Positions 16,893-25,956 of a DNA stretch of 64,000 nucleotides are shown piece by piece. This DNA comes from Massilia putida (GTDB lineage: Bacteria > Pseudomonadota > Gammaproteobacteria > Burkholderiales > Burkholderiaceae_D): the NCBI RefSeq assembly GCF_001941825.1, contig NZ_CP019038.1, positions 4,216,001-4,280,000 of the forward strand, given 5' to 3'. The translations under genes and the position numbers were made by a program. The notes beneath the pieces were generated by a model, which saw only the letters and a list, made by a program, of their open reading frames with translations, made no database searches and was not told the DNA's origin. The first letter of the stretch is position 1. Each line of letters opens with the position of its first letter.

Positions 16893-16934
16893 TGGTGCCG
16901 GCTGCAGGACTCGAACCCGCCACCTGATGATTAC
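16893..16934 (-). pseudogene. 3' half of a split tRNA-Thr(UGU) gene (nt 35-76)
   Basis: On the minus strand, 16934 to 16893 reads as tRNA nucleotides 35-76: GTAA (end of anticodon and loop), 3' anticodon stem TCATC, variable AGGTG, T stem-loop GCGGG-TTCGAGT-CCTGC (stem fully paired), acceptor strand AGCCGGC, then ACCA. The acceptor strand is perfectly complementary to GCCGGCT of the 5' half at 25950-25956, which shows that both halves came from one gene. Rejoined, they give a 76-nt tRNA with anticodon TGT. The anticodon stem then has one T-T mismatch (28-42). The half stops exactly at the element junction. Confidence 0.9.
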
Positions 16935-16940
16935 GAAACA

Positions 16941-16968
16941 GAATGGGCACCTGGCCGCTGTTGCGTTA
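16941..16968 (+). repeat. Element terminal inverted repeat, tRNA 3'-half side
   Basis: Starts GAATGGGCACC and continues through CTGTTGCGTT. About 22 of 28 positions match, in inverted orientation, the other end at 25893-25922, with one 2-base gap. Six bases (GAAACA, 16935-16940) separate it from the tRNA 3' half and have no equivalent at the other end; they may be the crossover or coupling bases left by recombination. The repeat likely binds the element's tyrosine recombinases. Confidence 0.7.
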
Positions 16969-17143
16969 GACATGCCCTTCAGCTTGAGCAGGGTGTTGCT
17001 TTTAAGTGGCCAATGTGTTGCTTTACATTCTTATACGTTAACACAAATGCGTTGGTTTTACGCCACTCTCTGCAAGCCGTTTTTCGGTTTTTAGTTATCC
17101 ACAGGCTGTCGCGCTCAACACGTTTTGAGCGACTGCAAGAACA

Positions 17144-17804
17144 TTACGGATCCATAATTAAGAAAAGTCCGCTTGCCGCAGCCAGCCCAACGCCAACACC
17201 GCCTGAAATCACAGTCGTACCGATGGAGGAGCCGCCTGCCGCAAGATATTTGCAGGATGCGCGGAAAATGGAATACGCAGTGAGAGGAGCATCGATAGGA
17301 TATTTGTTTGGAACATTTACAGCTAAGTGCAGGCTTCGTTCCATTCTTTTTCTTTCCGATTATCAGATAGGGAGCGCCGGCCCGCAGAAACTTGTCAAAA
17401 GTTCTTTTTACTCTGGCCGCGATGTAAGAGTATTCATTCATGAAAACCCATTCCTCCGCAAGTACCTGATAGACGATATCATCGTCTACTTCGTTTCTTA
17501 AGTCGTCAAGAAACTCGGAATGTTTGTCAAAGCGGCTTTTAAACTCTGGCGCCTCCGTTACATCAAGCAATCCGCCCAGATCAATGTTGCGTTGGAAAAA
17601 ACTGAAATCGATATTCGCTTGCCCGGGCAGTTTAAAAAAACGCCCTAGTGTTTCCCGCTCCGTTTTAGTTAGGCTATCCATCCTAAAAAAAATCGAGGGC
17701 AAATAAATTTTGACGATGTCTGCATGTTCTTCAGCAAGTGTTACGAATCTTTCTAGTCTCTGCATATTTGGGATTGCAGAAGGGTCCAGGATTGCATCGA
17801 TCAT
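17144..17804 (-). pseudogene. Unknown cargo gene, interrupted by a frameshift
   Basis: An ATG at 17804 with AAGGAAG seven bases upstream starts MIDAILDPSAIPNMQRLERF and continues about 150 codons through KIYLPSIFFRMDSLTK and LAEEWVFMNEYSYIAARVKR. In an A-rich run near 17345-17358 the good frame shifts by +1. It resumes as MERSLHLAVNVPNKYP and ends GGVGVGLAAASGLFLIMDP, a Gly-rich hydrophobic tail that could enter a membrane. Together about 220 residues. I do not recognise the family. Either the gene is broken by an indel or the run hides an error. An in-frame GTG at 17852 is an alternative start. It is the last cargo gene before the element end. Confidence 0.55.
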
Positions 17805-18021
17805 TACACTTCCTTTGACTAAATATGGGTCGTTAGAAAATTCTGCGTTCACCGAAACTCTTCAAAAACTTTAGATGACCGAGATTTTCTTGCTCACTGG
17901 GTTAAGCGTGGAATTTCCTGCTTTATTGGTAGAAACCGCGTCCAAAAGCGACGCTAAAGTGGCTTACCATGGTGGTTATTGCTCTCTTATACTCAAGCAC
18001 AAGACCACGCGAGTTGCTATT

Positions 18022-18270
18022 CTAGCATCTCCTTTGCTCTGTAGCGACGCATCTAATCACATACCGTGGAGAGAATTCGCTGTCGAGCTGCCGCAGGTTT
18101 TGGCACGCGAAGGCGTGAAAGATCTTACTCCAGACCTGATCGGCTTTTGCGCCGACGATGTAGCCGTCCAGCGTAGCCACCGCGTGACGTGCGTTGTATG
18201 TCCGGCTCATGCACAGCACGTCGTCGATATCCAGAAAAACTAGTGTGTCACTCACTAGAAAGCTCTCCAT
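18022..18270 (-). CDS. Short HAD-like (Swiss Army Knife RNA-repair type) fragment
   Basis: 82 residues from an ATG at 18268-18270. After MESFLVSDT comes LVFLDIDDVLCMSRTYN, the HAD motif I with two nucleophile-type aspartates. Later FHAFACQNLRQLDSEFSPRYVI resembles the LF..A...L....F.P.YVI block of the HAD domain described in Swiss Army Knife RNA-repair proteins. Such proteins normally run on for another 70 or so residues with Ser-rich motif II and a late Asp motif; here the frame ends in RCVATEQRRC. It is therefore probably C-terminally truncated. Cargo of the mobile element; activity uncertain. Confidence 0.55.
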   Translation of the reverse strand: MESFLVSDTLVFLDIDDVLCMSRTYNARHAVATLDGYIVGAKADQVWSKIFHAFACQNLRQLDSEFSPRYVIRCVATEQRRC

Positions 18271-18409
18271 GTATTCCAATCTCTTACCCAACGGCTTATG
18301 TTCTATGAGAGTTCTAACATTTACCTAGAAAGGCTCGTAAATGTGGTCAGTCGTGTACTTTTGCCAGAAATGACGCGCTTCTAACGAGCATTCGACTGCC
18401 ATAACCTCA

Positions 18410-18664
18410 TCACCGGCCAAGATTGCGCTCTTTGAACTCCATCGCTGTGCTCACGATTACGTCAACTTGGTACCGATCGGAGATCGCTGCGATCGGCGTT
18501 TTTCCATGAAGCGAATGCTTTGGCGTCATGAAGAACTGGAACATTACGTCCCCAGTAAGACCTGCAAGCGAGAGGCACACTGTTTCGACATCACCGCAAA
18601 TTGATACATCCGCGAAAAAACTGGGAAACCATCGTTCGCCTCTACTACCGCTCACGTAAAACAT
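18410..18664 (-). pseudogene. Possible antitoxin-like (DUF2384-type) gene cut by IS3
   Basis: The frame runs from inside the IS3 end through LAVLEQAIQDSSMFYVSG to a C-terminal FFMTPKHSLHGKTPIAAI and AMEFKERNLG. The last part resembles the toxin-binding domain of Xre/MbcA/ParS antitoxins (small TP..G.TP..A block, then a helix ending F.ER). The first ATG inside the frame is at 18664, but the frame is open up to the IS3 boundary at 18703, so the true N-terminus has probably been removed by the insertion. The family match is weak, read by eye. Confidence 0.4.
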
Positions 18665-18772
18665 GCTGCTATCTTGGATAGCTTGTTCAAGGACAGCAAG
18701 AGTGAACCGCCCCGGGAATAGTGGAGGCTGGTTGGTTTAAGTTAATGCGGTTTCATCGGCAGCGATCTTGAG

Positions 18773-19588
18773 CTACCGATAGTAGTTTGCCTCAGCTTCC
18801 GCGGGCGGGATATAGCCGATTGGTTCCATCAACCGGTGGTGGTTGAACCAGGCCACCCATTCCAAGGTTGCCAGCTCGACAGATTCCCGAGTTTTCCAGG
18901 TTCGGCGGTGAATCAATTCCGTCTTGTACAAGCCGTTGATCGTCTCAGCCAGTGCGTTGTCGTAGCTGTCTCCCCGATTGCCGACCGACGGTTCGATACC
19001 TGCTTCGGCCAGGCGTTCGCTGTAGCGAATGCTGAGATATTGCGAGCCCCTATCGGAATGATGGATTAAAGTTCCATTTTCACCGGGCTGGCGAGCATAC
19101 AATGCCTGTTCAAGCGCATCCAGAACGAAATCAGTGGTCATCGACGAACTGACCCGCCAGCCGACAATGCGCCGGGCGAAAACGTCCACCACGAAGGCTA
19201 CGTACAGCCAGCCCTGCCACGTCGAAACGTATGTAAAGTCCGACACCCACAGCTGATTTGGACGGTCAGCCCTAAACTGCCGATTCACCCGATCCAGCGG
19301 ACGTGGGGCGGCAGAATCGGGAATCGTTGTCCGGACTCGCTTGCCGCGCACAGCACCTTGCAAACCCAGCCGCTTCATCAAGCGCTCGACCGTGCAGCGA
19401 GCGATGGCGATGCGTTCCCGGTTCATCTGCTTCCAGACCTTGTCGGCTCCGTAGACCTTCATGTTGGCCTGCCAGACCCGGCTGATTTCCGGACACAGAA
19501 TCTCATCGCGCTTCGCCCGCGCGCATCGCTTCGACGAATCACGAAGCTGTGCCGCATGGCGCCGATAACCCGACGGGGCAATCCGCAA
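18773..19588 (-). CDS. IS3 transposase orfB (DDE catalytic part)
   Basis: 271 residues from a TTG at 19588, but the frame is open upstream to about 19666 ([19 protein letters not shown]) and is normally made as a fusion by -1 frameshifting at the end of orfA. The rve integrase core is intact: Asp in LWVSDFTYVSTWQGW, Asp in IHHSDRGSQYLS and Glu in DNALAETINGLYKTE. The HTH_21 region VWKQMNRERIAIARCTVERLMKRLG precedes it. Length and motifs are complete, so the copy could be active. Confidence 0.93.
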   Translation of the reverse strand: MRIAPSGYRRHAAQLRDSSKRCARAKRDEILCPEISRVWQANMKVYGADKVWKQMNRERIAIARCTVERLMKRLGLQGAVRGKRVRTTIPDSAAPRPLDRVNRQFRADRPNQLWVSDFTYVSTWQGWLYVAFVVDVFARRIVGWRVSSSMTTDFVLDALEQALYARQPGENGTLIHHSDRGSQYLSIRYSERLAEAGIEPSVGNRGDSYDNALAETINGLYKTELIHRRTWKTRESVELATLEWVAWFNHHRLMEPIGYIPPAEAEANYYR

Positions 19589-19644
19589 GACCTTGCAGAT
19601 CGGCTCGACCCCGAAGGTGTCGCGATGCTGATCGATAAAGGCCT

Positions 19645-19971
19645 TCAGGACTTCAAACGGCGGTCGAGCTCCGCCTGGGCGAAAAACGCGCTTGCCAGCT
19701 TCAGGATTTCGTTCGCCCGCCGCAGCTCTTTGTTCTCGCGCTCCAGGGCTTTGAGTCGCTCACGCTCCTCTGTTGTCACTCCTGCGCGCTCTCCCTGGTC
19801 AATCTGGTCGCGCTTGACCCATTCATGCAGCGTTTGTGGCGTGCAGCCGATCATCCCTGCAATTGACTCGACCGCCGCCCACAGCGAAGGATGCTCATTA
19901 CGCTGCTCCCGTACCAGACGGACTGCGCGCTCCCGGACTTCCGGCGAAAATTTGCTTGGCTTCTTGTTCAT
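19645..19971 (-). CDS. IS3 transposase orfA (HTH and leucine zipper)
   Basis: 108 residues beginning [19 protein letters not shown], with the HTH ([23 protein letters not shown]) and a coiled coil ([21 protein letters not shown]) ending AELDRRLKS. This is the classic IS3 orfA that binds the element ends and drives oligomerisation. The orfB frame overlaps its last codons in -1 register. The start is close to the right inverted end at 20021. Confidence 0.94.
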
Positions 19972-20152
19972 AGCTCCATTCTCTCAAGAGTTGGAGCCTC
20001 CATCAAATCCGGGGCGGTTCAATCCCAGGTTCCGTGTAGCAAGAATGAACGGCTCAGATAGCCGCCGAACGAAACTCGATCTACTGTTTGGGCGTTCGTT
20101 ACGCCTTGCAAGCTCTGGGCCAATGAAGCACATGCATTGGAATTGAAGAGTA

Positions 20153-20433
20153 TGGTGCCGAGTGTCTGACTCGAACAGACGACCTACCGCTTACCTTACC
20201 ACTACGGCTTTCGCCGCCATATGTTTGTGGTCTGGACTATCCCTTAGCCATAGCAACGCTTTAGGCTCCCCCCGTCTAGTCTCTACACCTTCCTGCGTTA
20301 GCAGGCTTGGCTCGGGATCGGCTTAGCCATGCGGCCTTAGCGTTCCCCGAATTTGAAGGGTTCTACTCCTACCGTTTCCAGTAGGGCACTCGTATGTTCA
20401 AGGCGGTTGCTCTACCAACTGAGCTAACCCGGC
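20153..20433 (-). tRNA. tRNA-Thr(UGU) interrupted by a group I intron
   Basis: On the minus strand the 5' exon is 20433-20400 (nt 1-34) and the 3' exon is 20194-20153 (nt 35-76, CCA encoded). Spliced: acceptor GCCGGGT with ACTCGGC (one G-T pair), D stem GCTC/GAGC, anticodon stem ACCGC/GCGGT fully paired, loop CTTGTAA with anticodon TGT, T stem GTCTG/CAGAC fully paired. That is a regular 76-nt threonine tRNA reading ACA codons. It differs in stems from the split host tRNA-Thr (25923-25956 and 16893-16934), so it is a carried copy, not a duplicate. A TATACT box 11 bases upstream (20444-20449) could be its own promoter. It sits 62 bases after the recombinase operon. Confidence 0.95.
20195..20399 (-). 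ncRNA. Self-splicing group I intron (IC3-like) in tRNA-Thr
   Basis: 205 nt between U34 and G35. Intron numbering from 20399 down: P1 pairs exon CUU (nt 32-34) with GAG at 9-11, giving the required U-G at the splice site. P2 is a 7-bp hairpin (15-21 with 26-32) with loop GAAA. A CCTGC/GCAGG hairpin lies at 95-108. P7 pairs GACTA (119-123) with TAGTC (161-165). P9 is CGGC-GAAA-GCCG at 184-195. The last base is G205. Core strings such as TCAAATTCGG, GAGCCAAGC, GGTGTAGAGACTAGACGG and ATAGTCCA match what I recall of the 205-nt Azoarcus tRNA-Ile intron; the CUU exon and U34 position recall the cyanobacterial tRNA-Leu intron. There is no ORF inside it. Confidence 0.95.
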
Positions 20434-20443
20434 ACTGTCCCTT

Positions 20444-20449
20444 AGTATA
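20444..20449 (-). promoter_or_regulatory. Putative -10 box for the intron-bearing tRNA-Thr
   Basis: TATACT on the minus strand, ending 11 bases before tRNA nucleotide 1, which is the normal distance for a tRNA promoter. No good -35 hexamer was found at 16-18 bases, so read-through from the recombinase operon 47 bases upstream is an alternative or additional source of transcript. Confidence 0.45.
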
Positions 20450-20495
20450 CTCCATTGTGCGGCTGTTCAGGAAGCAATTGCTTGCCCCAACGTGA

Positions 20496-20981
20496 TCAGG
20501 TGCTTTTGGGTCTCGTCGAGCGCCTACTCGGCGTCTTGAGGGGAATCACCTCTGCCCGTTCAGAACTCATACCTGCAGGACGTACAGTCTCGCCGATGGC
20601 CTTGTACTCCTTCCAGAATCGCTCAAGCGCGTTTAGTCCACCGGCCTTCATAACCGCTTGAATGCAAGCAGCATGTGAAGCGATCAGGGCTGCAACCTGA
20701 GTTCCGAGCATGGCGTTAGCATCCTCTGCTTGAGTCAACTTGTCGCTCAGAGACTTTGATTGGACGAAATGAGGGTTCAACGCACTTCGCAATTGTTTCT
20801 GGCGAGCCTGAGCGTTTGATATCATTTCCATACGCTTAGGGTTTCTCGTGAATGCAGACGCATTGTGTAAGGTAGCGTGGTTCCGGGACACTTCTCGAAC
20901 AGTGATGTCAGTATCCGAAGCTAACAACGCGTCCAACACCCTCGACAGTTCGATGTTCAGTGCGTCGAGTTTGGGCTTCAT
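20496..20981 (-). CDS. Small helper of the recombinase operon (TnpC/DUF6262-like)
   Basis: 161 residues, mainly helical. Residues 20-70 (VLDALLASDTDITVREVSRNHATLHNAS, then RNPKRMEMI) look like the small HTH of TnpC-type helpers found with Tn554 recombinases. A coiled coil (QSKSLSDKLTQAEDANAMLGTQVAALI) follows, then a basic tail. The ATG at 20979-20981 overlaps the stop of the third recombinase, so it is the last gene of that operon. In Tn554 the equivalent protein assists recombination; that role is inferred here. The assignment rests on size, position and layout. Confidence 0.6.
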   Translation of the reverse strand: MKPKLDALNIELSRVLDALLASDTDITVREVSRNHATLHNASAFTRNPKRMEMISNAQARQKQLRSALNPHFVQSKSLSDKLTQAEDANAMLGTQVAALIASHAACIQAVMKAGGLNALERFWKEYKAIGETVRPAGMSSERAEVIPLKTPSRRSTRPKST

Positions 20982-22878
20982 CGGAAGAGATCCTCTATAG
21001 GTGTTGAGTGGTCTGTCCCACTTTCAAACAAGGGCTTACTCGGTTGAGCAGCTAATGCGAGGTCAATGCCGATAATTAACTGCTCTGCATGCGCAATTTG
21101 GTTCTTGCGTCCAATAGATTTTATCGGCTTGGCCGCTGCGGTATCCCTCATGACTTTTAAATCGGCACGGAGAGATTCTAAGGAAATGCGATGTTCCTTC
21201 ATGCCACTTGGAAGGAAATGTCGACAATTATCGAAACACTTGAGATGTTTAACACAGGGGTTTACCGCAAAGCTTGTTATACAGAAACCATACGGCGTCG
21301 AGTGAAAGCCATCGCTATTTTGAGATAAGTACAAAAATGCAGCCTCGTCCCCACTTTCTCGCTGAATTTTCTTAAAAGTCATAGCTATAGAACTTCCACC
21401 AAATAGGTCGGATAAGACCATCTTTGCTACCGTTTCCTGAGGTGTTCCAGGTTGAAAGAGATTAGCAGCCTTATCTGGAATATCGACATCTTTCAAGCGT
21501 TCGCCTAAGCTCCGGTGATCGTACACATAGCTTTGAGTTACCGACTCACGACCGAAATGTTGAGTGATGATAGTGTCCGGCACGCCTTGGCGAAATAATT
21601 CTGTATTCATCAAATGGCGTAACGAATGTGGCTTGATCGATAGCTGAGCCTTATTGGGCAGATTGCTATATTGTGTGAATATAGTTCCCTTCTTAGAAGC
21701 CTTTTCGGTACTTAAAAAGCTAAAAAGGAGGATTGGGCGGCAATTTCAATCTTTCTAGTACTATCAATGAACTCTGGTAAATCACCTCTGCAATTGTGAA
21801 GTACTAAGAACAAAAAATCTCCGATGGTCAGCTGTTCTCCTGATGCCGTCGTAAAAGTTCGTTCAACAGAGTTCTGACTTTTGATTGCGTCGCGGAGTGG
21901 TCGCGTGGCCTCTAGTATTTCCAATACTGTCAACTCCACCAGCTTCGCAAACCGCGCCGGCACCCATTGAAAGTCCTCAACAAGTACTTTGTCTCCTTTT
22001 TTTCTTCTCTTTTCTCCAAAGTATTTAATCTTTAGAGACCGGCTAACTCCGCCAATTTCGCCAGCTGGCTTGCCTGTAACGATATCAATATGAGTCTCCC
22101 ATTGGAGGCAATCGGCAGGAAGTAGCACTACTTCATTAAGTCTCAAGCCCGTTAGAGTTAGCATTCGAGCTATTGCGAATCGAATCTTATGCTGGTGTCC
22201 TAACGGCGATTCGTTAAATACAATGCGGACCATTTCATGCAGTGCTTCTGCAGATGGAAGTTTTTTGCTTCCCTTTCTTTCAGATAGCATATTGCTTAAA
22301 ATGGAGTTTAGCTCTTTTTCGCCTTTGTAAACCAAAGGTACATGTAGAGAAAGCAAATTCGAATTTAGAAAGCCTGCAAGAACACCAATGCTTGCCCTGA
22401 CGCTGGTTCTTTTGGGGAATAAATCTAAATATCGGTCAAGGTCTTCAGAGTTTAATTCCCACGGGTATTTATTTGTGCACGAGAAAAAAGACTTCAATAG
22501 AGAAAATTCGTTTCTAACAGATCGTGGCAATATACCTTCTGATGCCCGATGTGCGACTATTGCCTTTAAGAATTCTTGAGTTATTTCGCTGAGAGCCGGC
22601 CCAGATGGAAGCAAAACCTCCGGCCATCCGGCTTGAGACGCGCGCGAACGTACTTCTTCATCAATGGAAAAGCTGGTCAAGCGAGCTGCGTGACGTTCAT
22701 TGTTGGATGAGAATCGGCGAATGTCCCAATCTTCATTGGAACTTATTTTTCCAAGTTCATCACATTGGATATGCCATGAAATTCCTCGCTCCGAAGCCAG
22801 ACCGTATGCTCGCTCAATAAAATGATGGTAGCTGGCTGGGATACGAGTAATCGAAATTTGAGAAAGAGTTTGGCTCAT
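20978..22878 (-). CDS. Third tyrosine recombinase, split by a -1 frameshift
   Basis: The first frame (22878 to 21712, 388 codons) has an N-terminal SAM-like region and the first catalytic Arg in LTLTGLRLNEVVLLP. It stops at TAA just before the rest of the active site. The -1 frame continues without stops: IKPHSLRHLMNTELFRQG (His and second Arg), HFGRESVTQSYVYDH (His/Tyr) and then a Cys cluster (GFCITSFAVNPCVKHLKCFDNC). Joined, about 635 residues, the size of Tn554 TnpB. At the stop the sequence reads T-TTT-TAA, where a Phe tRNA could slip back one base, so programmed frameshifting is possible; a one-base indel is the simpler alternative. An internal ATG at 21613 could make only a fragment lacking the first Arg. 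It overlaps its neighbours by ATGA on both sides. Confidence 0.82.
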
Positions 22879-24356
22879 TTCTGAGATGCGCTTTCGTTCG
22901 ATATGTCGAGGGCTCGCTGAGCACCTGCTATAGCGGTAGTTAGCTGCAAGTACGCTGGGCTCTCTTTACTCCCCCCAGCTTTAAAAAAAGACAGAACTTG
23001 TTCTCGCATTCCAGCAATCGCCTCTTTATGCACAAGGGGATCTAGCACGGGCATATATTTTTTGCAGTTATAACATGACATGACTGGGTCATACATGCAA
23101 TTTCCTTGACCTGCAGCGCACAACCCTATACCTGCAATCAATCTGCTTCCAACAATACCCGCGATTTGGTCGTCCTCATGTGCATCCTCAAGCTCTTTTG
23201 GCGTCACATATTTCCCTGTTGCAATTAACTCGAGCTTAGAATAAAGGGCAGATGTACCTAGAGCTTTATTTAGAAATTCGACTTGCTTTCGGCTTGACTT
23301 AAGATAGGTATTTCCCGAATTGAGCTGGGTTTGTCCAAGAAAATTTTTTATGTCGGTTCGACTATGACCAGCGTCAGCTAAAGTTTGTGCTCCAGTATGT
23401 CGCAACTTGTAATAATTATACTGTATGCTTACGCCAAATTGTTTGGCAACCTTCTTTGTGAGTGCCCAAAGCTTCGTGCTGTCAGCTGTAGAGAAAATAC
23501 GGGTTCTCGCAGCATTATTCGCTGAGTTTAGTAGCTTGATAACAAGCGGGGCCCATTCTGGCTTTATGCTGCGCGAAAGTTCCACGTCACCTCGGCCTCC
23601 CTTCTTTTTGGCTTGATGAAAGGAGACAATACACGCCAATTTTCCGTCGTTTTCTTCTATAAGTTGAATGTGATTTGTTAAAAGGGTCAATATCTGGACT
23701 GGACGGATAGCGTGTTGAAATCCCAAAGCTAAGGCTGTGAGACCTTCGATTTGCCACTCTTCTAAATTTGGTGAGGCCGCCTGCTCGTCAAGTAAACGGA
23801 TAATATCCGCTTGAGAGGAGGTGGAAAGTAATTTCGAGCGGTTTGCGATCCTCTCCTTTCGCACGGCTCGCTTTGAGCTTTCTCTCGTGTTGAGTTTCTT
23901 TATAAACTTCTGATGTGTTGTATCCCAAGGTCCCAAGGAATGTCGCGCAGCGAGTTTCAAAATAGATTTCCCCGCTTTAGCAAGGTCGGGGGTCAATATA
24001 TTTTTATCCCAAAATGATATTATATCGCTAGGTTTCGTTTCAAGTAACTCAAGGAATATGATCCAGTGACGTAGTAGAGTGTACGTAAATTTATAGAATG
24101 ATGATGGCGAAAAATTTGCTTGCGTAAGAAGCACTAAGGTCTGTTGAAAAAGACCTACTTCCCCAGGTAAAAATTCAAATTTTCTTATTATGCCTTGAAT
24201 GGATGGAGACCAAAGGGTTTCGCCCAATACCAAGGTTACCGATTTTCCTGAATATTTGTCATATAATGTAAATGTCTCTGGCACAGCTGGCCACCCCCAA
24301 AACATTGGGTTAGCTTCGTGACCGTCGCTAGGAAAAAGGGTCTGATGTATATTCAT
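22875..24356 (-). CDS. Second tyrosine recombinase with C-terminal Cys cluster
   Basis: 493 residues. The catalytic domain lies in about 200-370: Arg in ALGFQHAIRPVQILTLLTNH, the Lys-containing turn, YYKLRHTGAQTLADAGH (second Arg with His in the spaced position) and FLGQTQLNSGNTYLKSSR with the nucleophile Tyr. After it comes a Cys-rich segment (CAAGQGNCMYDPVMSCYNCKK) that could bind zinc. The family is that of integrases acting in sets of two or three. It starts at an ATG overlapping the stop of the first recombinase gene. Codon use is AT-rich compared with the chromosome. Confidence 0.88.
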   Translation of the reverse strand: MNIHQTLFPSDGHEANPMFWGWPAVPETFTLYDKYSGKSVTLVLGETLWSPSIQGIIRKFEFLPGEVGLFQQTLVLLTQANFSPSSFYKFTYTLLRHWIIFLELLETKPSDIISFWDKNILTPDLAKAGKSILKLAARHSLGPWDTTHQKFIKKLNTRESSKRAVRKERIANRSKLLSTSSQADIIRLLDEQAASPNLEEWQIEGLTALALGFQHAIRPVQILTLLTNHIQLIEENDGKLACIVSFHQAKKKGGRGDVELSRSIKPEWAPLVIKLLNSANNAARTRIFSTADSTKLWALTKKVAKQFGVSIQYNYYKLRHTGAQTLADAGHSRTDIKNFLGQTQLNSGNTYLKSSRKQVEFLNKALGTSALYSKLELIATGKYVTPKELEDAHEDDQIAGIVGSRLIAGIGLCAAGQGNCMYDPVMSCYNCKKYMPVLDPLVHKEAIAGMREQVLSFFKAGGSKESPAYLQLTTAIAGAQRALDISNESASQK

Positions 24357-25540
24357 CTGCTTACTCGGTACGTGTCTAACATCGCATCGAACGTCTTGGC
24401 AACAGAATTTTTGACGTCGTCTTGAATGGCAGCGCGAGCATAAGTATCTGGCATATCAGAATTCTTACTCCAGCCGAAGAACACTCTCATTCTCTCCATA
24501 GCCTTTTCTTTGTCGCCGTCAGATAAAAATGCGACATAGCGAACGCATGCACATGTATGCCTTAGGTCATGGGGAGAAATAAATTTTTTATTAGCTCGTT
24601 GGCGAAAAGCTTTTAATGTGTCAGGTTCCATCGCAAGCGAATACATCCTTAGAGCTTTAGTCACAGATTCAGCGGAAAGTGGCTCACCAGTATCTGAAGT
24701 AAAGAGGAATTGATGTTCGGTACTTTCTGTTCGATATTCTCCAATATATCGCACGATTAGTTCTGCGAAGCTTTCAGAAACGGGTACTTCACGATGCGAC
24801 CATGGGGTTTTAATGCTGGGGCGTGTGGTACGTATATCGACATAAGCTAGGTCTTCTTCGGAAGTATTCGTAACATTTAGCCAGTATCGTACCTCACCCG
24901 ATCGCATATCTAAATCCTGCTTAAGGGAATCAAGCGTTAGAAGTAGAGTTTCACCCCTGCGCAGACCACAGAGCAGCATCAACAAAACTAATAGCCAGTT
25001 TCTTACCTGAATAGCAGGCGTTATGAAAGGATTGTCTGCTGCTCCAGGCTCGGCTACCGCAAGAAGGCCCTTAAGCGCTGTATCGGGTAATGCTCGGATA
25101 AACTTTACCCTGCCTTTATTAGAGGCCCGAAGCGTTCCAGGTTGTGGAACGGCTTTTTGAAGAGAGCGCCATTGTTGGCTGCTTACGGCCCAGTGATTCG
25201 CAAAGTAATGAAAAAATCTGCTGACAGTATCCCAGCAAGAAACGTCTGTGCTACTAAATGAATTTTTCGATGTAAGCGAGATATAAAATGAATCGAATAT
25301 CTCGTGTAGGCGCTCTGCGTTTTTGTCTCCAAAAGCGTTGTCTAGTGCGTGTTGACCAAATTTGCTATCGCAATAGACGTAAAATCTGTCGAGGTAACGG
25401 AGCCGTCCAATTAGAGTGTTCTCAGCCCAACTGCCCCCTTCATAAAGCGTCCACACCGTTGACCAGTATCGTGGTCGAGGAAGCGGAGACGGTTCAGTAA
25501 TGACGTGAGTGGGGAAAGCGCCAGTGCGATAAAGTGGCAT
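24353..25540 (-). CDS. First tyrosine recombinase of the element
   Basis: About 395 residues. An N-terminal SAM-like DNA-binding region precedes the catalytic domain: Arg in LLCGLRRGETLLLTLDS, HDLRHTCACVRYVAF (His and Arg), FFGWSKNSDMPDTYARAAI with Trp in the His/Trp position and the nucleophile Tyr. All catalytic positions are present. It heads the operon of three recombinases and a helper. I prefer the ATG at 25538-25540, which follows a G-rich GGGTGGG; a GTG at 25549 is the longer alternative. The upstream 370 bases to the element end should hold its promoter. Confidence 0.87.
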   Translation of the reverse strand: MPLYRTGAFPTHVITEPSPLPRPRYWSTVWTLYEGGSWAENTLIGRLRYLDRFYVYCDSKFGQHALDNAFGDKNAERLHEIFDSFYISLTSKNSFSSTDVSCWDTVSRFFHYFANHWAVSSQQWRSLQKAVPQPGTLRASNKGRVKFIRALPDTALKGLLAVAEPGAADNPFITPAIQVRNWLLVLLMLLCGLRRGETLLLTLDSLKQDLDMRSGEVRYWLNVTNTSEEDLAYVDIRTTRPSIKTPWSHREVPVSESFAELIVRYIGEYRTESTEHQFLFTSDTGEPLSAESVTKALRMYSLAMEPDTLKAFRQRANKKFISPHDLRHTCACVRYVAFLSDGDKEKAMERMRVFFGWSKNSDMPDTYARAAIQDDVKNSVAKTFDAMLDTYRVSR

Positions 25541-25892
25541 TTGGCCCACCCTATAGGTTTAAAGGGATAGCAAAGGCACCAGAGCGTTGGGGCCGAAAGG
25601 TACGCGGAGTCATCGCCAGGCGAAAGGCGCCTAAGGTTAACCACTTGAAGGAAATGACGAATCTGTGGCGAATTGCCGAAGTAGGGCTACCGACTGCTGA
25701 ACACGCACGCGCAAAAAGCGCTGCGTTGTGGAAAGAAAGGGGATGAAGGGCAATGGCGATCGACTGCAGAGGAGCCGAGTCGACCTCTTGTTTCAGAAAG
25801 CGTTTTGGTAGACCCATGCTCGCATCCTTACAGACGAATCCTACGAAGACTGTCATAGGACAACTGTAGCGATGCTAGCCCAAGCCTGCAGC
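25541..25892. other. Non-coding left end of the mobile element
   Basis: About 350 bases between the first recombinase gene and the terminal inverted repeat. Open frames exist on both strands but none has a ribosome site or a recognisable domain. The region presumably carries the recombinase promoter and accessory binding sites; I cannot pick out specific boxes. Confidence 0.4.
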
Positions 25893-25922
25893 AAACGCAA
25901 CAGGCGGGCAAGGTACACATTC
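25893..25922 (-). repeat. Element terminal inverted repeat, tRNA 5'-half side
   Basis: Read on the minus strand it starts GAATGTGTACC directly after tRNA nucleotide 34 and continues through CTGTTGCGTT. It matches, inverted, the other end at 16941-16968 in about 22 of 28 positions with one 2-base gap. Unlike that end, there are no extra bases between tRNA and repeat. Confidence 0.7.
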
Positions 25923-25956
25923 AAATCAACTGCTCTACCTGATGAGCTAAGCCGGC
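25923..25956 (-). pseudogene. 5' half of the split tRNA-Thr(UGU) gene (nt 1-34)
   Basis: From 25956 down: acceptor GCCGGCT, TA, D stem GCTC, loop ATCAGGTA, GAGC, A26, 5' anticodon stem GTTGA and TTT, ending at position 34, the first anticodon base. The element starts at the next base. The missing nucleotides 35-76 are at 16893-16934. It lies 21 bases downstream of sspB, on the same strand, and would be transcribed into a useless half tRNA. In an uninterrupted relative I expect an intact tRNA-Thr here. Confidence 0.9.

Follow-up and report, generated by a model that had tools for sequence, protein, structure and literature searches.

The stretch of DNA analysed here, hereafter the window, comprises 64,000 nucleotides of the Massilia putida genome (contig NZ_CP019038.1, positions 4,216,001 to 4,280,000) and harbours a mobile element of about 9 kb that splits the host tRNA-Thr(UGU) gene between U34 and G35. 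The element occupies positions 16935..25922 of the window on the minus strand, as do all the features described below, in a genome of 7.5 Mb. The 5′ half of the broken host gene lies at 25922..25956 and the 3′ half, starting from G35, at 16893..16934; each has 0 mismatches to the corresponding half of the intact gene, and base 25922 can be attributed either to the host or to the element. These boundaries follow from a comparison of the junctions with empty sites in genomes of the same genus, in which eight of ten loci (L013-L020) contain one intact tRNA-Thr(UGU) gene each, the other two being the window itself (L011) and a locus that has a 3′ copy alone, where another island ends (L012). Within the element lies a complete second tRNA-Thr(UGU) gene (20153..20433), here called the spare, which is interrupted by a 205-nt group I intron (20195..20399), again between U34 and G35. 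A first-pass annotation of the window had proposed that the element breaks tRNA-Thr and carries an intron-split spare with the same anticodon, whose intron sits at the very point of insertion, and the junctions, the empty sites and the ARAGORN predictions confirm this, the insertion point being also the edge of the proposed 6-bp crossover region.

With its default settings, ARAGORN reports 0 tRNAs in the window, and with introns allowed it reports tRNA-Thr(UGU) with an intron of 205 nt. The Rfam model Intron_gpI matches the spare with 32.9 bits (E=1.2e-6), a score below the gathering score of 50. A fold was drawn by hand on the alignment of the seven homologous spares introduced below and includes a P1 helix that places a U-G pair at the 5′ splice site, a P10, a P3-P8 core in which P7 forms a pseudoknot, P9 and a terminal G, so that the features of a group I intron (P1, P3-P9 with the pseudoknot, U before the intron and G at its end) are present in it. 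Over the seven homologs, 97.5% of the cells are paired, a percentage biased in favour of the fold because it was derived from one member, and 13 pairs have changed on both sides. None of 500 shuffled controls reaches either the 97.5% pairing or the 13 double changes, and sliding the partners by one to three columns lowers pairing to 31-41%. The intron is predicted to self-splice from the RNA; it is too short to contain an endonuclease gene. A -10-like box, TATACT, stands upstream of the spare at 20444..20449, and in a comparison of the seven copies the box reads TATACT or TATAAT in six and TAGAAT in the seventh. The exons of the spare are 93-100% identical among the seven elements, with no difference between those of the window, Pelomonas and Hydrogenophaga, which indicates that the spare travels with the element and was not copied from each host.

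The remainder of the element is dominated by a set of recombinase genes. Recombinase A (24353..25549, 398 aa) is a tyrosine recombinase with a PF00589 score of 46.2 bits against a cut-off of 27.1, and recombinase B (22875..24356, 493 aa) is tyrosine recombinase-like, scoring 17.2 bits, below the cut-off, with 24 bits for its copy in the element of M. alkalitolerans (L075). The first-pass annotation had placed a recombinase trio here, and the three genes lie where it put them, the third, recombinase C (20978..22878), carrying a frameshift between 21613 and 21712 in this copy and thus split into two pieces (21712-22878 and 20978-21613). Its in-frame homolog in L075 has 631 aa and scores 26.7 bits, just below the PF00589 cut-off. 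Downstream of C lies gene D (20496..20981, 161 aa), which is conserved at that place in the homologous loci and has no match in a Pfam search. By their open reading frame (ORF) coordinates, A and B, B and C, and C and D overlap by 4 bp each. PADLOC, run on 7 proteins, returned no match, and a search of solved structures with recombinase A returned weak matches only. The element of the window also contains the genes of an IS3-type insertion sequence (18773..19971, with rve and HTH_Tnp_1 domains), in which an ALIL frameshift element is recognized at 19574-19690 (117 bits), and about 1.8 kb of further cargo.

Both sides of the element start with related inverted motifs. The right terminal motif (25893..25922) begins GAATGTGTACC and has related counterparts in L075, in the Paraburkholderia element (L078) and in Burkholderiales genome G704; the left motif (16941..16967) is inverted with respect to it, and between the left motif and the host tRNA lies the left 6-bp spacer, TGTTTC (16935..16940), at which the host spacer reads TGATTT. 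From the comparison of the element ends, we infer that crossover takes place in a spacer of 6 bp that is bounded on one side by U34|G35 and flanked by two arms. The host spacer is TGATTT in Massilia, Paraburkholderia and G704 and CGCCTT in Variovorax, Pelomonas and Hydrogenophaga, and the left spacers of the seven elements are TGTTTC, TGATTT, TGACTG, TGATTT, CGCCTT, TCCCTT and CCCCTT, a variability that looks as if this spacer were carried along from a donor site.

Homolog searches with recombinase A add six further elements in tRNA-Thr(UGU) to that of the window, namely in M. alkalitolerans (L075, genome G003/G465), Paraburkholderia sp. CNPSo 3272 (L078, genome G466 and again G754), Variovorax sp. 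679 (L089), Pelomonas sp. V22 (L090), a metagenome-assembled genome (MAG) of Hydrogenophaga (L086) and G704. In all seven, the host tRNA-Thr(UGU) is broken and a complete intron-split tRNA-Thr(UGU) is carried, and a tRNA-Thr inserter with an intronless spare, which the first-pass annotation had held to count against its proposal, is not among them. Both ends lie in one locus in L078 and L089, where the element measures about 5.9 kb and consists of A, B, C, D and the tRNA only; in L075, L086 and L090 the two ends are on separate contigs and were joined by inference, and in G704 gene A is in two pieces. The recombinase A family is rare: at the limits used, a homolog occurs in 4 of the 399 genomes searched from the order and in 17 of 398 from a second family, and none in 50,697 phage records.

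The host gene appears to be without a backup in the carriers. An exact match to the intact-gene pattern, GGTAGAGC-N6-YTTGTAA-N5-AGGT, is absent from six carriers and found in all nine other genomes of the same scan; it is likewise absent from G704, whose two genus mates have one match each, and present in 18 of the 19 non-carriers scanned with it, the exception (G247) belonging to a genus without matches. Counted by eye among 56 genomes of the genus of the window, 54 contain one match and no more, and the pattern is missing only from the two carriers, G000, the window genome, and G003. The pattern can miss variants, as in G1041, whose intact gene ends in AGGC, and some whole genera have no match; the carriers include one MAG, that of Hydrogenophaga; and in G000, for which Rfam counts 85 tRNA genes, the copy number of tRNA-Thr(UGU) rests on this pattern match. 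Another intact tRNA-Thr(UGU) that would make the spare dispensable, which the first-pass annotation had named as fatal to its proposal, was matched by the pattern in none of the seven carriers. In 18 further genomes without the pattern, besides G704, a DNA search found no split tRNA-Thr.

Relatives whose recombinase A is near 45% identical are inserted elsewhere, in reading frames without a tRNA. Target frames were sought in eight loci (L079 among them) and read in six: L077 and L087 open the sequence KFDGYR, and L080, L081, L084 and L092 open IDESF, while L076 shares with L077 and L087 only the junction letters. We take KFDGYR to resemble the active-site motif of DNA ligases and IDESF that of Y-family polymerases. 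On the sites read, each recombinase clade seems to target a motif of high conservation, and this family has no fixed tie to tRNAs; the first-pass expectation that the trio always lies in a tRNA anticodon loop fails for these relatives and, as to the split spare, holds in all seven tRNA-Thr inserters. The scan for elements covered the best 27 of 79 loci (L075-L101), seven viral loci and five others, leaving 52 weaker loci (L102-L153) outside, and flanks were read for 16 loci; the target assignments do not extend to L088, L091, L093-L101 and L154-L160, or to relatives at 36-38% identity. In six genomes that carry such relatives, tRNA-Thr(UGU) is intact and a split tRNA-Thr is absent, the insertion site having been read in five of the six (not in G474). 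In the tree of recombinase B, the seven tRNA-Thr inserters form one side of a branch with support 99/96, and in the tree of recombinase A six of them, G704 being left out, lie on one side with support 84/93; L083, whose flank is too short, was labelled in these trees through its near-identical protein. The intron remains at least 80% identical while the identity of recombinase B drops to 42%, and the distance tables of the two correlate with r=0.59, a value reached in 32 of 5040 permutations.

At the level of sequence, then, seven of seven elements show the same set of features: a broken host gene for which no second, intact copy was matched, a replacement gene, and an intron in the latter at the position of the break. 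The mechanism we propose from them is that the tyrosine recombinases would insert the element into the only tRNA-Thr(UGU) gene detected in the host, at its anticodon loop, so that the gene is broken at U34|G35, and that the element would supply a replacement tRNA-Thr(UGU) whose group I intron lies at exactly this position. In the DNA, the intron would displace the right arm of the recombination site, and recombination at the spare would not occur; in the RNA, it would remove itself and leave a working tRNA, and the host would then depend on the element. We thus consider it likely, with fair confidence, that a replacement tRNA with a predicted self-splicing group I intron at the break point is hidden by that intron from the element's own recombinases. 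Splicing and masking are the inferred steps of this scheme. The central idea is better supported than a reading of the letters alone had allowed, and the interpretation as a whole is partly supported.

The comparison of the spare with its target is central to the masking proposal. Host by host, with the halves taken separately and a core of 11+6+12 bp, 29 in all, being assumed, the exons of the spare differ from the target core at 0 positions in Pelomonas, at 2 in Variovorax and at 2 in Hydrogenophaga, and at 9 in each of the other four carriers. In Pelomonas, with its match of 29/29, the intron is therefore the only difference between the core of the spare and that of the target. The first-pass annotation had suggested that differences in the stems might add to the protection of the spare; as exons match the target at 27-29 of 29 positions in three of the seven carriers, such protection is not general, and the intron matters more than that annotation had supposed. 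Furthermore, the intron has no homing gene yet is kept in every lineage found, which suggests selection.

The breaking and replacing of a tRNA gene is established for actinophages as tRNA-dependent lysogeny, described in 2024 (PMC10865867), so that the absence of precedent claimed by the first-pass annotation does not extend to this part of the system; the intron mask, by contrast, appears unreported. The new part would be a ribozyme that acts as a DNA-level mask. The two systems share short anticodon-loop cores and a tRNA gene that is broken and not rebuilt, here in the window and the six further elements; in PMC10865867, the actors are temperate phages with a single integrase and tRNAs reported as intronless, whereas here they are a recombinase trio and an intron. 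Nor do these elements look like temperate phages, as the space between the two halves of the host gene is taken up in L078 and L089 by A-D and the tRNA alone, and none of the phage records searched has a homolog of A. Among the open-access papers listed by our searches, no account came to light of a replacement tRNA of this kind that contains an intron, or of a tRNA-Thr group I intron linked to mobile DNA; the searches mostly did not extend to subscription journals.

Several other known systems resemble parts of the arrangement. RIT elements, frequent in betaproteobacteria, have three adjacent tyrosine recombinase genes with short overlaps, of 4-8 bp according to PMC3414803, and the overlaps here are 4 bp, with all three proteins matching PF00589, B and C below its cut-off; this likeness is one of gene layout and not of compared RitA, RitB and RitC sequences. 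RIT elements are, however, about 3.5 kb in size and are described there as consisting of ritA, ritB and ritC only (PMC3414803), in contrast to the minimal 5.9 kb or so, the gene D, the tRNA and the fixed target found here. IStrons likewise pair a group I intron with mobile DNA in a way that makes insertion less harmful to the host, and in them the intron and the transposase ORFs form one inserted unit that is spliced from the RNA of the gene that was hit (PMC4227781); here the 205-nt intron resides in a separate spare tRNA gene, and the host gene stays broken. Group I introns also occur in the T-loop of the tmRNA gene, which islands often enter, with no protective role proposed in the available part of PMC11915505. 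The native tRNA-Leu(UAA) introns of the order share with the spare an anticodon-loop intron and a related core sequence; unlike these bacterial tRNA group I introns, the intron described here is in tRNA-Thr(UGU) and is carried by an element that destroys the host copy. The Gamma-mobile-trio is a tyrosine recombinase gene set that moves cargo, and by the NCBIfam model for GmtY, which gives 14.1 bits against a cut-off of 340, the element is not a member of it.

Several observations weigh against masking. The Rfam score of the intron falls short of the gathering score, as noted above, and for four of the seven carriers 9 mismatches in 29 bases already set the exons apart from the target. Introns are found at the same loop position in native tRNA-Leu(UAA) genes of the order, so that the position alone could be inherited. 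Intronless phage spares share short stretches with their putative attP (9 bp in Mollymur and DatBoi, 10 in OneUp and SpeedDemon and 11 in Cain), indicating that a mask is not strictly needed there; for Bantam, BrutonGaster and Fionnbharth, no clear core between spare and putative attP emerged. Finally, the copies in the window and in G704 may no longer move, because gene C is broken in the former and gene A in the latter.

The main rival to the masking of the spare takes the break-and-replace strategy as given, with the spare compensating for the broken gene, and regards the intron as a harmless passenger from an ancestor with an intron-bearing tRNA-Thr. Such an origin would be in keeping with the group I introns of native tRNA-Leu(UAA), tRNA-Ile(CAU)-like and tRNA-Arg(CCU) genes of the order and with the several phage replacement tRNAs that are intronless (PMC10865867), and would have to account for an endonuclease-free intron that is nonetheless found in seven of seven lineages, down to 42% identity of B, and that in Pelomonas is the sole difference from the target core. 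Moreover, among the loci of 120 relatives, with at most six candidates scored per genome, no split tRNA-Thr was found outside these elements. Taken together, we regard the passenger as a serious but rather unlikely explanation, and the masking of the spare as the preferred one.

A second alternative assigns the intron a regulatory part, with conditional splicing setting the amount of replacement tRNA and deepening the dependence of the host, and masking being secondary. Of the 745 threonine codons that 43 putative host ORFs of the window contain, 27 are ACA, the codon that requires tRNA-Thr(UGU), and 16 of these ORFs use it, as against 7 of 29 threonine codons in A and 10 of 32 in B; this enrichment, together with the spare's own -10-like box, would fit such a gate on supply, yet the codon use may merely reflect foreign origin, neither a regulatory element nor a protein for this role was found, and the position in the loop does not require it, which makes this explanation improbable. 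The least credible alternative, which we give hardly any weight, is an ordinary tRNA-targeting island that rebuilds its target and contains a tRNA-like remnant by chance: although islands of the genus do rebuild tRNA-Thr(UGU) at the same site (L021, L024 and L026, with integrases in L024 and L026), the spare here is complete, conserved and folded, and the host gene is rebuilt at neither junction, which contradicts it.

If the spare is masked as proposed, selection would have a tangible ground for preserving a group I intron without an endonuclease inside a bacterial tRNA gene. The elements described here also widen the range of tRNA-dependent integration, known from actinophages, to small recombinase trios that occur in five or more named genera of betaproteobacteria. 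Split replacement tRNAs can escape default tRNA finding, as in the window and in the Gordonia phage Daredevil, so the phenomenon may be undercounted.

Daredevil emerged when phage records were searched for distant DNA matches to one of the spares. ARAGORN predicts in it a tRNA-Lys(UUU) gene (L255:2840-3151) that an intron interrupts at U34|U35, where no tRNA is annotated, 566 bp from the annotated integrase gene (915-2273) and 234 bp from its stop-to-stop frame. A putative attP (L255:2670-2688) lies between the integrase and the split tRNA and contains CGGACTTTTAATCCGC, of which the exon ends of the split tRNA match 7 + 9 bp (16 bp of the putative attP), a longer stretch than the intronless phage spares share with theirs, and the aligned core of the intron resembles those of the other introns. 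According to the text of PMC10865867, Daredevil integrates at tRNA-Lys-TTT without rebuilding it, has no tRNA of its own and forms clear plaques, and the isotype of the split tRNA is the one stated there; a figure legend of the same paper names tRNA-Ile2 instead. The published statement that Daredevil has no replacement tRNA may merit re-examination. As a similar arrangement, this phage counts in favour of the masking proposal, but Rfam reports no intron in Daredevil up to E=1, and its clear plaques, a misfit with a working replacement, weigh against masking as a requirement; the spare may fail in the host tested, or lysogeny may fail for another reason.

Among the 160 viral loci covered (157 from the matches listed and three others, nearly all found by intron-core patterns), at least 126 have a split tRNA, and three of these lie within 3 kb of an integrase-like frame; because the integrases of Daredevil and of the provirus L273/L253 were in the search profile, this count is no test of enrichment. 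Besides Daredevil, the three comprise that provirus, with a tRNA-Thr(UGU) at 39 bp, and the virus L287, with a tRNA-Lys(CUU) at 115 bp. In L287, a ACTCTTAA stretch upstream of the tRNA fits its anticodon loop and is short enough for chance, and the L253 record begins at the integrase, so that the insertion site lies outside it. The recombinase-trio elements, in seven lineages, Daredevil, L287 and L253 are candidate cases of a wider device, in which self-splicing introns would have evolved repeatedly to confer self-immunity on integrating elements that destroy an essential tRNA, a generalization to which we give an even chance. Elsewhere among viral sequences, the 595-kb uncultured phage LR756511.1 (L257, 868-1654) has a tRNA-Leu(UAA) with an intron of 700 nt, a length sufficient for an ORF.

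The tRNA-Thr(UGU) site is an integration hot spot: the same-genus islands L021, L024, L025 and L026, which have the same insertion position, leave an intact gene and a displaced 3′ half, and the L024 and L026 islands have unrelated tyrosine integrases. Other intron-bearing tRNA genes were also recorded. At ten loci of the order with introns in tRNA-Leu or tRNA-Ile-like genes, no credible homolog of A-D was found, and one such locus adjoins an rpoD-like gene (named by eye). A tRNA-Ile(CAU)-like gene in G910 (L241, 1435-1718) has its group I intron directly after the anticodon, an insertion point unlike the others, and a tRNA-Arg(CCU) with a group I-like intron occurs in G247 (L225, 1363-1705), of the same family as the window genome. 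No plasmid record covers 80% of the spare, and 1267 match its intron part. The only one of these examined, plasmid pCTX-M3 (NC_004464.2; L256, 2458-2756), has at this place a tRNA gene that lacks annotation, reads by eye as tRNA-Leu(UAA) and contains a group I intron; aac(3)-IId is about 650 bp away.

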